This document shows positions 7,846-12,278 of a stretch of 64,000 nt of DNA, one piece after another. Under the pieces are notes generated by a model. It was not told the origin of the DNA. It worked only from the letters and a program-made list of their open reading frames with translations, and made no database searches. The position numbers and the translations under genes were made by a program. Source of the DNA: an uncultured Clostridia bacterium (GTDB lineage Bacteria > Bacillota > Clostridia > Christensenellales > Borkfalkiaceae); the NCBI GenBank assembly GCA_930989535.1, contig CAKNLK010000003.1, forward strand, positions 1-64,000, written 5' to 3'. Position 1 is the first letter of the stretch, and every line of letters starts with the position of its first letter.

Positions 7846-9228
7846 CTATCCGTTCTGCTCCTTCCACTCGCGGAGTTTTTGCATATCCTTTTCCTGCACG
7901 GAGGAGGTGATTTTTTCCAAAGCGCGGTCAAAATCTTCCTGCAAGATCTCCTTGACGCCCGTCTTTGCGCTGCGAAGCGCGGAAAGTTCCTGCACCTCGT
8001 CCAGCAGATTCGCCATGTCCGCGCCGTTGAAGCCCTCCGTTTTCTCCACGACCTGCGCGGCGTCGATATTGCCGACGAGCACCTTGCCCGTCTGTAAAAT
8101 TTTGTTCAGACGCATATCGAGCATATATCTGCGCGCGGGCGCGTCGGGCAGCCCCACGTAGACGCGTATGCCGAACCGCCCCGGCCGCACGAATGCGGGG
8201 TCGATTTCCCACGGCTTGTTCGTCGCCGCAATCAGGAACAAAATTTTATCGTTCTGCTCGCCGTACGCCTCCATGCCCTGTATCTGGCGCAAAAGCTCGC
8301 TGCGAAGCTGCCGCGCCCCCTGCGCGTGCGTATTGGCGGGGCAGATAGACTCGATTTCGTCGAAAAACAAGACGGCGCACGGAAAACTGCGCGCCTCTTT
8401 GAACAGCGCAACGCACGCCTTTTCGGAATTGCCGACGCCCTGCATCACCAAATCGGACGGGCCGAGCGAACAGAACTTCGCCCCGATTTCGTGCGCAATC
8501 GCCGCGGCAATCATCGTTTTGCCCGTACCGGGAGGGCCGTACAGCAAAAGCCCGCCGCCGTTCTTTTTGACGTAGCCCTCGTACAGTTCGGGGTTTTTGA
8601 GCGGCAGAAGCACTTTGCGCATCACCGCCTCCTTCACGTCGTCCAGCCCCGCCACGTCGTCAAAGGAAATTTTCGGCAAATCGTCCCACGCGAAGCGGTA
8701 GCCGCTCGTATCCTCTTTGCCGTACGCCCTGCCCTTGCCGCCCTTGGCGCGGAGCAGTTCTTTCAATTCGTCCAAAGCGGGCTCGCCGTCTGCCGCGAGG
8801 CTCTCCTCCGCTCCCGGCGGCGAGCTCTGCGGCGCCGAGGCTTCCGGCGCCTCCTCCGCACAGCTTTGTCCCTCCGCCCGTTCGGGCGATTCGGAAAGGT
8901 GCTCCGCCGCCCCCTGCGGCGCCGGGCTTTGGGGCGCCCGGCTTTGCGGCGGAACGGGGTTTGCGCGCAGCGCTCTGCCCGTAAGGTCGCGGTACACGGC
9001 GGACGCATCCCCCTCCGCGCGCAATTTTTTCGCGACGGCGAGCAGTTTTGCCGCCTTGTTTTCGCAGGCGGCGCGCGTCAGAAAATCCGTTTTCGCGATT
9101 GCGAGCAAATCGCTCGCCGCATCCAATAAAAGGCGGGCAATATCCGCATTCGGTTTGCCCTGTTCCATCCCCTCGATAGCCTGCCCGTACTTTTGATTGC
9201 AGGCATTTTTTAATTCCTGAATATCCAT
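7846..9228 (-). CDS. Vps4-like AAA ATPase with MIT-like N-terminal domain
   Basis: 460 residues. Residues 1-75 form a three-helix MIT-like region whose last helix reads [20 protein letters not shown], close to the pattern of Vps4-type MIT domains. A Pro/Ala/Glu-rich linker (76-150) leads to one AAA module: Walker A GPPGTGKT (231-238), Walker B VLFFDE (286-291), sensor AATNKP (334-339) and arginine finger RPGRF (348-352). The end, [13 protein letters not shown] then W and G, matches the C-terminal helix of the Vps4/katanin/spastin clade. Pore loop 1 reads [10 protein letters not shown] and lacks the aromatic residue usual in that clade. The start lies 5 bp after the upstream ESCRT-III-like gene with no separate ribosome site, suggesting coupled translation. 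Known family role: disassembling ESCRT-III polymers. That it does this here is inference from context. Other AAA functions remain possible. Confidence 0.8.
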   Translation of the reverse strand: [460 protein letters not shown]

Positions 9229-9233
9229 GGCCG

Positions 9234-9818
9234 TCAGATAATTTTATTTTTCTCCGCTTCTATCTCCGCGGAAAGGTCGATTCCCGCAGCCGAAGGCATG
9301 GAAACGCCGGACATCTTCGCCCGGGCCGCGTCTATCATCGGGCGCACGGCGGCGATTTCCGCCTCGCTGCGCACCCTGTTGGCGGGATTGGAACGCTTCA
9401 TGGCGCCAGCCATCGCCTTTTGCGATATTTTGACGTCCTTCATATATTTAGCTATCTTCGCGTTCGCCTTTTGAATTTTGCGGATATCGGGCAGGTTTGC
9501 CCTGCCGTCCGCCATTTTATCCAGCGCGTTCATCGCCATCGCCATGCTCGAGGCGATGGAATTGGATACGTTGATGATGTCGAAATTCGCCTTCGTCTGC
9601 ATGAGCCCGCTGATGGAATCGTTCAAATCGACGAGCGCGTTGACGGCGACGTCGTAGGTGCCGGCATCGCCGTTGACCTCCGCTTCCGCCGCGATTTTCG
9701 CATATTCCTCGCGCTTTTTCTTCAGTTCCTCAATCTGCTCGGAAAAGACCTGCATCTGTTCCTCGCGCTCCATCTGCTCCATGATTTCCCGTTCCTGCTT
9801 TGTTTTAAAGAACGCCAT
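9234..9818 (-). CDS. ESCRT-III (Snf7)-like coiled-coil protein, short form
   Basis: 194 residues, almost all helical, no signal peptide or membrane segment. A charged N-terminal helix (about 8-45, many E/K/Q) and a second helix (about 50-75) could form the long hairpin of ESCRT-III proteins. The stretch NLPDIRKIQKANAKIAKYM (about 107-125) followed by a Met-rich helix resembles CHMP/Snf7 helices 3-4. The tail has a short Leu/Ile helix, SAEIEAEKNKII, placed where ESCRT-III proteins carry an MIT-interacting motif; it is not a clear match to the MIM1 consensus. A good ribosome site (GGAGGG) sits inside the end of the upstream gene, which it overlaps by 14 bp. Assignment rests on pattern and context, not on a search; a generic coiled-coil protein is the alternative. 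Confidence 0.6.
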   Translation of the reverse strand: MAFFKTKQEREIMEQMEREEQMQVFSEQIEELKKKREEYAKIAAEAEVNGDAGTYDVAVNALVDLNDSISGLMQTKANFDIINVSNSIASSMAMAMNALDKMADGRANLPDIRKIQKANAKIAKYMKDVKISQKAMAGAMKRSNPANRVRSEAEIAAVRPMIDAARAKMSGVSMPSAAGIDLSAEIEAEKNKII

Positions 9819-10812: not shown

Positions 10813-10823
10813 GTTTTTTCCTC

Positions 10824-12278
10824 CTATTCCTTCGTATACAGGCCGTACTCTGTGAAGAACTGAAGGGCCGCCTGCAAATAAGCGCGCTCCTCTTCCACCC
10901 CGGCAAAGCGCCCCTGCAGATACCGGCTGTTTTCCTCGGAACGGTGGCGGATTTTATTGAAGGCAGTCCAATACCCGTTGGCGCGCAGCGCCTGTTCCGT
11001 GTTCAGCCCCGCTTTCAAAAACCGCACGACGGGCAGCATTTCGACGACTTCGGGCTTCCCGTTTTCGCCCTCCTCGACGACGCGCGGCATGATGATTTGA
11101 TACCGCCCCGTCCTTTTGTCGTACCGCCGCAGCAGGTACCGCCCGTCTGCGAGGCGCGCCGTCTTCGAAAGCTCCTCGTATTCCTCGTAGTCCATCACAA
11201 ATTTTTCCCGCTCGTGCCGCAGGCGGAATTTTTTGATGAGATTTTCCTCGATATTGGTATACAGCATCGCCACGGCGGGAACAAACTCTTCGCCGTCTCT
11301 CGCCCCGGCGATAATGTTCTTCGCCGTTATATTTTCGCCGCCCGGGCCGTTTTTGGCGAGTTCCTTCAGCGGCATCAGCTCCTGCAGGCGCTCGTCGAGG
11401 CTGTCGGCAAGGATATCCTGCATCTCCTGCAGCCGCCCGCCCAGCTGTTCGGAGAGGTCTGCCGTCAGCTTTTCGCGCATCCGCTGCATTTCCCGCTCCC
11501 AATCGGGGGAGTCGTTTCCCCGCTCCATCTGCGCGCGGAGCCGCTCGAATTTTTCGTCCAGCCGGCGCAAGATATCCTCCGCGAATTTCTCCTGCGCCTC
11601 CGCCGTCTGTTTGCGGCTCTGTTCGGGCGCGTTGATGCGCGAGCGAATCAAGGCCAGGTCTTCCTCATTGACGTGTATGCCGTCCACGGTGAGGTTTTTG
11701 ACGGCAAACCCCAAATCCGCAAATATCGGCTCGCCCTGCAGCGCCGCCAGAAACTTTGCGCGAAGTTCGGCGGTACAGGAGGCAATTTCAAAAACGGAGA
11801 TATCCGTTCCCGCAAAATATGTACCCAGGAGCGCCGTGCCGATATTTTTGACGACGGAAACCGTGCGCGCGCGCAATTTTTCGGCGGTGATGTTGTCCTC
11901 GCGGCCGAACTGCGCAATCAGCTTCGGCGGCTGAACCAACTCCACGGCATACGAGCCGTTCGCGCCGACGCGGTACGCCTCCTTCAGCCGCTCGTTGTTC
12001 ACCTGGATGTTGCCGAAACCCCACGCCAGCGGCGGAACGGGCTTTGTGCGGACAAAAGCGACGAAACACTTTTTGCCGTTCAGCTCCTTCCCGTAGGCGG
12101 AGAGCTTTTTTTCCGCGCAGGGCTGTATGCGGAACTGCACTTTTTCGTCCGCAAAGACAAACGCGGCATACCCGTCCGGCACGGTCACCGAAAGCGTTTT
12201 ATCGATTAAAGCGTCTCCGCTGAACTGCACAATTACGCTTTCATCCGAAATCAACGGTTCCAATACGGTCTTTTTCAT
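10824..12278 (-). CDS. SPFH/band-7 domain protein (YdjI / virion-core-like family)
   Basis: 484 residues from the ATG at 12278, chosen because AGGGAG lies 8 bp upstream; the frame is open further upstream but without coding character. Residues about 20-230 show the SPFH fold pattern of the YdjI group: a WGFGNIQV strand, then a GSYAVELVQPPKLIAQFG stretch, then a helix and a DLGFAVKNLTVDGI strand. A Glu/Arg/Gln-rich coiled coil spans about 225-310, and the last 150 residues form a separate globular region. No membrane helix is visible. In Bacillus subtilis, YdjI works with the ESCRT-III relative PspA (established). Here it is first in an operon with two ESCRT-III-like proteins and a Vps4-like ATPase, so a membrane-recruitment role is the natural inference. 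Confidence 0.7.
   Translation of the reverse strand: MKKTVLEPLISDESVIVQFSGDALIDKTLSVTVPDGYAAFVFADEKVQFRIQPCAEKKLSAYGKELNGKKCFVAFVRTKPVPPLAWGFGNIQVNNERLKEAYRVGANGSYAVELVQPPKLIAQFGREDNITAEKLRARTVSVVKNIGTALLGTYFAGTDISVFEIASCTAELRAKFLAALQGEPIFADLGFAVKNLTVDGIHVNEEDLALIRSRINAPEQSRKQTAEAQEKFAEDILRRLDEKFERLRAQMERGNDSPDWEREMQRMREKLTADLSEQLGGRLQEMQDILADSLDERLQELMPLKELAKNGPGGENITAKNIIAGARDGEEFVPAVAMLYTNIEENLIKKFRLRHEREKFVMDYEEYEELSKTARLADGRYLLRRYDKRTGRYQIIMPRVVEEGENGKPEVVEMLPVVRFLKAGLNTEQALRANGYWTAFNKIRHRSEENSRYLQGRFAGVEEERAYLQAALQFFTEYGLYTKE

Follow-up and report, generated by a model that had tools for sequence, protein, structure and literature searches.

Does any bacterium carry both working halves of the membrane-remodelling machine known as the endosomal sorting complex required for transport (ESCRT), the filament protein ESCRT-III and the ATPase Vps4? 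The question is raised by an operon in the window analysed here, a stretch of 64,000 nucleotides from an uncultured Clostridia bacterium of the Borkfalkiaceae (contig CAKNLK010000003.1, positions 1 to 64,000). ESCRT-III-like proteins are known in bacteria (PMC7618577), and a 2024 survey (PMC10936438) confines systems with both vps4 and ESCRT-III to archaea and eukaryotes. An earlier note, made from the DNA letters of the window, had described four genes as a complete ESCRT-like set: an SPFH protein, two ESCRT-III-like proteins (here P3 and P2, in that order) and a Vps4-like AAA ATPase (AAA1). All four open reading frames (ORFs) were recovered on the minus strand where they had been described, with recomputed spacings of exactly 11, -14 and 5 bp. 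The interpretation of P2, of the ATPase and of the SPFH protein was upheld, as was the conservation of the set; that of P3 as an ESCRT-III protein was not. We read the operon, with a probability of about 0.6, as a bacterial ESCRT-III/Vps4 membrane-remodelling machine with anchoring and effector parts of its own, acting as an accessory envelope-damage system coupled to TIR and protease proteins. The computation supports the gene set, an ESCRT-III homology at the level of the family, the conservation of the operon, its accessory distribution and its domain layout.

Profile comparison assigns the P2 family to the ESCRT-III (Snf7) family. A profile of 61 family sequences, including P2 of the window and with 55 sequences kept by hhalign, aligned with a profile of human and fly ESCRT-III proteins (CHMP1A, CHMP1B, CHMP2A, CHMP3, CHMP4B and Shrub) at a probability of 95.3% (P 2.3e-8, 146 columns, score 58.9). 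As a control for this score, 60 shuffles in seven-column blocks gave a mean of 14.5 (sd 2.4) and a maximum of 20.8, and the reversed profile gave 0.5%. For calibration, the known paralogues CHMP1 and CHMP4 were compared in this way and reached 41%, with 43 columns aligned. Smaller profiles compared with the same ESCRT-III set yielded 57% (mixed family, P 1e-4) and 83% (remote family, P 9e-6). In a Pfam scan of 34 family members, 18 matched Snf7 at E<=10, with 2.8e-8 as the lowest value, and the next families were matched by six each; when ten members were scanned singly, Snf7 was found in three at E<=0.05, and the member from locus L080 scored above the cut-off (34.0 vs 27.3).

An AF2 model of P2, built with 13 homologues, shows helices at residues 7-49, 52-103, 112-140, 152-170 and 182-193. 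Searched against the PDB with Foldseek, it gave CHMP3, CHMP2A, CdvB and CdvB at ranks 1-4 (E 0.068-0.48, TM-scores below 0.52); the ESCRT-III superfamily accounted for 11 of the top 14 matches, the rest being C3PO twice and one 14-3-3 protein. Family profile A8, compared with PDB chains, matched a designed coiled coil at 0.0043, then CdvB at 0.0094 and CHMP2A at 0.062. An early P2 profile (A2) had produced only chance-like matches in the PDB and was discarded.

The C-terminal tails of the family resemble the MIT-interacting motif MIM1, for example AIERELAELKKRMSE compared with DELSQRLARLRDQV of CHMP1B. A loose MIM1-like pattern was found in 28 of 52 distinct tails; 500 shuffles gave a mean of 0.7 and a maximum of 4, and of 347 sequence windows elsewhere in the proteins 2 fitted. 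The count is descriptive because the pattern was loosened after some tails had been inspected and because the sequences are related. The tail of P2 from the window is a degenerate version that fits the pattern poorly. A start of the Met-hydrophobic-Lys type occurs in 31 of 54 family sequences.

Several results weigh against the assignment of P2. The P2 protein of the window reaches no family cut-off in Pfam and has no Snf7 match there, and its close subfamily alone gave 16% (P 0.0016) with the ESCRT-III profile. With CHMP1B as a single sequence the values were 0.4% for the close subfamily and 3.3% for profile A5, which combines both P2 groups, and the 61-sequence profile gave just 7-8% with profiles of CHMP1 only or of CHMP4/Shrub only. 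The P2 model is of moderate quality (best predicted local distance difference test score, pLDDT, 68.4 and predicted template-modelling score, pTM, 0.47; other models 42.5-58.7), and Foldseek returned no match at E<=0.001, the best TM-scores being 0.39/0.47. Requiring the CHMP-like basic residue, Arg or Lys before the core Leu, left 3 of the 52 tails (shuffled mean 0.2, maximum 2).

The PspA-like character also proposed for P2 found no support, since no PspA_IM30 (PF04012) match was obtained for it; among family members, PspA_IM30 is absent from the 25 families listed, of 130, in the scan of 34 sequences. The hhalign test is itself blind to PspA, CHMP against the one PspA sequence used giving only 0.7%, so that its low values do not speak against a tie to PspA.

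Fused forms of the ESCRT-III-like domain were also seen. It is joined to a larger C-terminal ATPase-like part in L107 (7646-9250, +), L083 (12508-14451, -), L096, L101 and L104; the copy in genome G286 is FtsK/SpoIIIE by Pfam, and the other copies were judged by eye. Fusion to a RuvB-like AAA was seen in L092 (5968-7635, -), judged by eye, and in L103 (1283-4183, +), which has Pfam RuvB_N/RuvB_C matches and a weak Snf7 match (24.8 bits).

The gene grouping is not due to chance, since SPFH, P3 and P2 recur in this order in relatives whose P2 is 58-83% identical, and the order SPFH, helical protein, P2-like protein, AAA recurs even in genomes where identity to P2 of the window has dropped to about 17-20%. 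As a single query, P2 of the window matched 2 of 41 genomes, one of them its own, and none of 24 congeners; in the order it matched 15 of 396 genomes at E<=0.01, seven of them strongly (58-100% identity, window included). Of eight weak matches, six were examined, and each of these lies just upstream of an AAA gene. The weak match L022 (genome G334) was rejected, being by its sequence a protein that we take to be DnaX-like; together with L014 (G307, a 4200-aa frame) it was left out of later family sets. A scan of GTDB contigs gave twelve named loci, eleven labelled Clostridia or Clostridiales. The twelfth, L030, is in a metagenome-assembled genome labelled Elusimicrobiaceae, which, going by the label only, may reflect either movement of the locus between phyla or an error in the labelling of the bin.

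Profile A5 detected the family in 45 of the 396 genomes and in 23 of the 142 genera of the order; the family examined comprises 61 genes in 50 loci. Contig ends limit the per-genome counts of partners, and these bear out the conservation of the operon: among the 45 genomes, a Vps4-like AAA gene is directly downstream (<=600 bp) in 33, a number that rises to 39 if distances of up to 6 kb on the same strand are allowed, SPFH is found in 38, and SPFH, ESCRT-III and AAA occur together in 32. A further protein of about 200 aa, X, is present in 24 and P3 in 7.

The description of a complete set of four genes was right about the grouping and missed other members. In the window the operon continues beyond AAA1, with the ORF of a giant TIR protein starting 107 bp further on; this ORF is cut by the contig end, the window starting at the first base of the contig, and its length is thus a lower bound. 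Relatives add a trypsin-like protease and a helix-turn-helix (HTH) gene. The fullest order, in L032 and L033, is HTH_3 protein (about 120 aa), SPFH, P3, P2, AAA1, TIR giant, a second AAA (AAA2) and trypsin-like protease. Other loci are less complete, either because some of these genes are missing or because the contig ends within the locus; the window has no HTH gene. G-rich stretches precede the starts of SPFH, P3 and P2.

Features of the operon in the window, with the basis of each annotation
Feature	Position	Strand	Basis
SPFH protein, 484 aa, Band_7_1 with C-terminal extension	10824..12278	-	PF13421 match
P3, 335-aa helical protein, family unassigned	9805..10812	-	AF2 model, no family over cut-off
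P2, 194-aa protein assigned to ESCRT-III (Snf7-like)	9234..9818	-	family profile, Foldseek
P2 C-terminal helix, degenerate version of the MIM1-like tail of the family	9237..9278	-	tail pattern comparison
Vps4/katanin-like AAA ATPase (AAA1), 460 aa	7846..9228	-	Pfam AAA and Vps4_C, Walker A GPPGTGKT, tree
AAA1 N-terminal region, MIT-like candidate (unproven)	9004..9228	-	pooled profile A7
Vps4_C, C-terminal region of AAA1	7849..7956	-	PF09336, residues 425-460
Giant TIR transmembrane protein (2579 aa or more, cut by the contig start), ectodomain with LRR_5 and Flg_new	2..7738	-	Pfam
TIR domain (giant residues 156-282) with W-V-K-N-E motif	6893..7273	-	TIR_2 match
Single predicted transmembrane helix of the giant (residues 902-920)	4979..5035	-	Kyte-Doolittle scan

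AAA1 was confirmed as a Vps4/katanin-like ATPase: it scores 111.3 bits to Pfam AAA, and 22.2 bits to Vps4_C, over the cut-off of 21.3. In relatives Vps4_C was above the cut-off in L018 as well and below it in L024, and the AAA of the remote member L044 carries SDIVSKWVGESEK, close to Vps4. The survey PMC10936438 recognizes Vps4, in archaea and eukaryotes, by (i) an MIT domain and (ii) ESCRT genes nearby; as to the second, the 39 genomes counted above have an ESCRT-III-like gene no more than 6 kb from the AAA gene. In an AAA tree of 51 rows and 8 references, with no archaeal CdvC and several long branches flagged, the bacterial AAAs formed one clade (95/91), which stood beside Vps4, katanin and spastin at weak support (83/40). 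As the clade is placed, weakly, beside and not inside these few Vps4-type references, a recent transfer is not required to account for it.

An MIT domain at the N-terminus of AAA1, as the earlier note had proposed, is plausible. Pooled profile A7 (15 N-termini, 75 residues) matched Saprolegnia chitin synthase 1 (2mpk) over residues 15-70 at E 5.5e-4, a structure described as an MIT domain in the title of PMC8851075. On the other side, TPR consensus proteins also match the pooled profile, one of them better than 2mpk, and the clade of AAA1 alone gave 0.2%. A set of 34 N-termini compared with the Vps4 MIT domain reached 28% (P 6e-4), its score of 23.9 being exceeded by a shuffle maximum of 25.6; Pfam found a weak MIT match in one of 15 N-termini and TPR in more. 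AAA1 has the motif RPGRF, which is Cdc48-like and unlike Vps4. Its NCBIfam scores for FtsH, PAN, CDC48 and CdvC are nearly equal (162-168 bits) and all far below the cut-offs; for the CdvC equivalog (NF041006) it has 162 bits against a curated cut-off of 650.

Longer frames of about 650-790 aa with an AAA of the window type were seen in L072, L073, L076, L078, L090, L091, L093, L097, L098 and L102. In L073 another AAA, with AAA_lid_6, precedes it.

The operon is an accessory locus with a patchy distribution. Some member of the P2 family occurs in 5 of 40 genomes of the genus. Outside the order, a class sample gave matches in 4 of 391 genomes, all of the same order, a phylum sample in 1 of 348, which was the window itself, and a plasmid search with P2 gave none. 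In congener G004, four genes neighbouring the operon in the window, which we presume to encode a kinase-GNAT fusion, an RNase G-like protein, an M50-like protein and the product of the next ORF, are kept in order; no SPFH, AAA or TIR match was found within the 14.5 kb examined beside them. Four other congeners have the kinase-GNAT gene as the sole recovered neighbour, and the stretch examined contained none of the operon genes. The fused kinase-like/GNAT-like gene adjoins the operon in the window at 12501-13415 (+), and two adjacent tRNA-Met genes lie at 31093-31282 (+).

The SPFH claim held as well, with Band_7_1 (PF13421) at 29.0 bits against a cut-off of 24, over residues 70-206; YdjI of Bacillus subtilis presumably has this domain too. 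The C-terminal extension of the window protein is not found in homologues of about 220 aa. With the ORF picker, SPFH homologues of 217-711 aa were found in 11 of 13 loci (the window and L029-L040). The ORF table shows none in L034 and L038, and the L034 contig does contain SPFH if read from stop to stop (as L016). No zinc-ribbon match, such as a C-terminal zinc finger of the YdjI type would give, was obtained for the window protein in the Pfam scan; double zinc ribbons are present in two remote SPFH relatives that were scanned (L044 and L047).

In B. subtilis, PspA is recruited by the SPFH protein YdjI, which has a zinc finger at its C-terminus (PMC8581546). This precedent and the zinc ribbons of the remote relatives speak for the main rival explanation: a module for envelope stress and membrane repair alone, which would replace a missing Psp system, the TIR/LRR giant being just a surface sensor or adhesin with no immune output. 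It owes its rank to a scan for PspA_IM30: of 61 genomes from the order none exceeded the cut-off and two had weak matches, while 9 of the 14 control genomes were positive. No PF04012 match was found in the genome of the window. A housekeeping repair system would, however, be expected to be common, yet the family was detected in 45 of the 396 genomes searched in the order and, at the level of the genus, in 5 of 40. The loci also repeatedly include trypsin-like proteases and TIR domains in which the Glu is conserved. We therefore favour a defence-like role over housekeeping, given the patchy accessory distribution and these partners, and regard repair alone as rather unlikely.

In the TIR protein of the window, Pfam found TIR_2 at 36.3 bits (cut-off 28), LRR_5 at 350 bits and Flg_new at 262 bits, with TPR below the cut-off; two CxxC pairs (CNIC/CPAC) lie near its start. 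The Kyte-Doolittle scan gave one membrane helix, preceded by residues rich in Lys and Arg, which predicts a cytoplasmic TIR side and most of the LRR/InlB-type repeats outside. In the TIR motif the Glu is a putative catalytic residue, at what we take to be the position of the catalytic Glu of SARM1-type TIR domains. The TIR proteins of L036-L038 are shorter, at 933 to 1,013 aa, and three transmembrane helices are predicted in each; LRR is absent from the one scanned with Pfam, which belongs to the locus of L036. A trypsin-like protease is present at the locus in 14 of the 45 genomes, and in eight aligned proteases the His, Asp and Ser columns are invariant. Trypsin and TIR effectors occur in conflict systems described in PMC7159879, of which the excerpt used has no ESCRT, Vps4 or Snf7 term.

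Other observations weigh against the proposed system. TIR with the W..E motif was found in 16 of the 45 genomes and related zinc-ribbon proteins without the motif in 10, so that it is absent from 10 of 26 genomes with a large protein; of two motif-less proteins scanned, neither has a TIR match and one has LRR_5. PADLOC gave matches to generic domains only (IetA/TRIP13 AAA, a TIR model and trypsin-containing models). No link to a phage was found. Two arrangements are recorded here in their own right. In L025 (5251-10713, +) a P2-like gene and AAA are followed by genes for two proteins, of the C_GCAxxG_C_C and TIR-NB-ARC types, with no SPFH found in the stretch examined; in L039 a RuvB-like protein (12586-13878, +) separates the TIR giant from the trypsin-like protease.

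The giant might instead be cargo. A protein-sorting or vesicle-budding machine, like the role proposed for archaeal ESCRT with SPFH, would handle it as a surface protein with LRR/InlB repeats; its single transmembrane helix and long repeat region would suit this, and SPFH proteins with zinc ribbons are present in archaeal Meth_adaptin ESCRT loci (PMC10936438). But TIR and trypsin-like protease are not sorting components, and L040 has SPFH, P3, P2, AAA and protease with no giant within the 16 kb examined, which makes sorting improbable.

The ESCRT-III description that the earlier note had given to both helical proteins was borne out for P2 at the family level, and for P3 the sequence gave it no support. 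Profiles of the whole protein or its halves, compared with ESCRT-III, the P2 family, X and PspA (not each half against each profile), reached 0.7% at most. No Pfam or NCBIfam family was over its cut-off, the best in NCBIfam being FcmC (19.9 bits vs 90). The AF2 model (mean pLDDT 79.5) has four N-terminal helices, a long helical hairpin and short helices, and its Foldseek matches are mixed, with CdvB at ranks 5-7 amid many unrelated helical proteins. P3 is present in all 13 loci (window and L029-L040), one copy being cut by a contig end, and that no family assignment explains it counts against the proposed machine. X is possibly a second ESCRT-III-like subunit in the genomes that carry it: against the P2 family it gave 45% (P 2.2e-4, 151 columns, score 33.6; 60 shuffles, mean 15.1, maximum 23.2), and against human ESCRT-III 0.5%.

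Among known systems, CdvB/CdvC and CHMP/VPS4 share with the operon an ESCRT-III core, an ESCRT-III gene just upstream of a Vps4-like gene, Vps4_C, MIM1-like tails and possibly MIT. Unlike them, the operon has a bacterial host, an AAA clade beside the Vps4/katanin/spastin references, and SPFH, TIR and protease partners. A wH or CdvA partner did not turn up among the scanned proteins, no search having been aimed at either. The B. subtilis PspA-YdjI system likewise pairs SPFH with a protein of the ESCRT-III superfamily, and its zinc finger is shared by the remote SPFH relatives; in contrast to it, P2 has no PspA_IM30 match, and the operon has a dedicated AAA and a TIR partner. Some bacterial members of the Snf7 or PspA clades lie near AAA ATPases, and Vps4-like ATPases have been transferred to bacteria with snf7 displaced (PMC11237479). 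The bacterial Snf7/AAA loci named in the excerpt differ from the present one in being tied to ABC transporters or TPR/6TM proteins, SPFH being unmentioned there.

The pair of AAA2 and trypsin-like protease in relatives recalls the anti-phage system IetAS, where an AAA ATPase gene is also found beside a serine protease gene. We take IetAS to consist of an ATPase and a protease, the latter of a different fold; AAA1 differs from IetA (NF042959) in scoring 79 bits against a curated cut-off of 510. That P2 is an unrelated coiled coil and AAA1 a generic Cdc48-like unfoldase feeding the protease or TIR, with a convergent likeness to ESCRT, is very improbable, for the non-significant Foldseek E-values of P2, the RPGRF motif and the IetAS-like pair (AAA2 of L032 has 150 bits to the PADLOC IetA model) are set against a family profile score of 58.9 over a shuffle maximum of 20.8, a family member over the Pfam Snf7 cut-off, the MIM1-like tails and Vps4_C over its cut-off.

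For the ESCRT-III/Vps4 machine coupled to TIR and protease, we infer filament formation, a contact of the Vps4-like ATPase with P2, sensing, an enzymatic output and a role in defence. The LRR/InlB-type ectodomain of the giant, or lipid packing, may sense damage from outside, by a phage, a pore-former or a contact toxin. SPFH would recruit or corral P2 at the membrane, as YdjI does PspA, and P2, by homology, would polymerise into filaments of the ESCRT-III type on the inner face. The Vps4-like hexamer would grip the C-terminal helix of P2 by its MIT-like N-terminus and extract subunits, leading to constriction or turnover; extraction by the tail is suggested by the MIM1-like tails and the gene pairing. 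An attack on the envelope would then trigger membrane repair together with a second response by a TIR NADase or the protease.

A more specific form of this proposal, which we offer tentatively as possible rather than probable, is a bacterial innate-immune ESCRT. A transmembrane TIR receptor whose LRR lies outside the cell, with the parts of a Toll-like receptor in reverse order, would sense an attack on the envelope and act together with SPFH-anchored ESCRT-III filaments and a Vps4-like ATPase, which would mend the damaged membrane or seal it off, and with TIR NADase or protease as a second line. An earlier description of ESCRT-III/Vps4 combined with SPFH and TIR was not found in the open-access PMC literature (mostly titles and the starts of abstracts; bioRxiv outside).

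A conserved locus in Clostridia where the gene for a Vps4-like ATPase closely follows one for an ESCRT-III of the Snf7 type would extend the machine to the third domain of life. The SPFH and TIR partners offer a testable link of membrane repair with immunity in bacteria. If the innate-immune form is true, ESCRT repair is coupled to TIR immunity in bacteria too.

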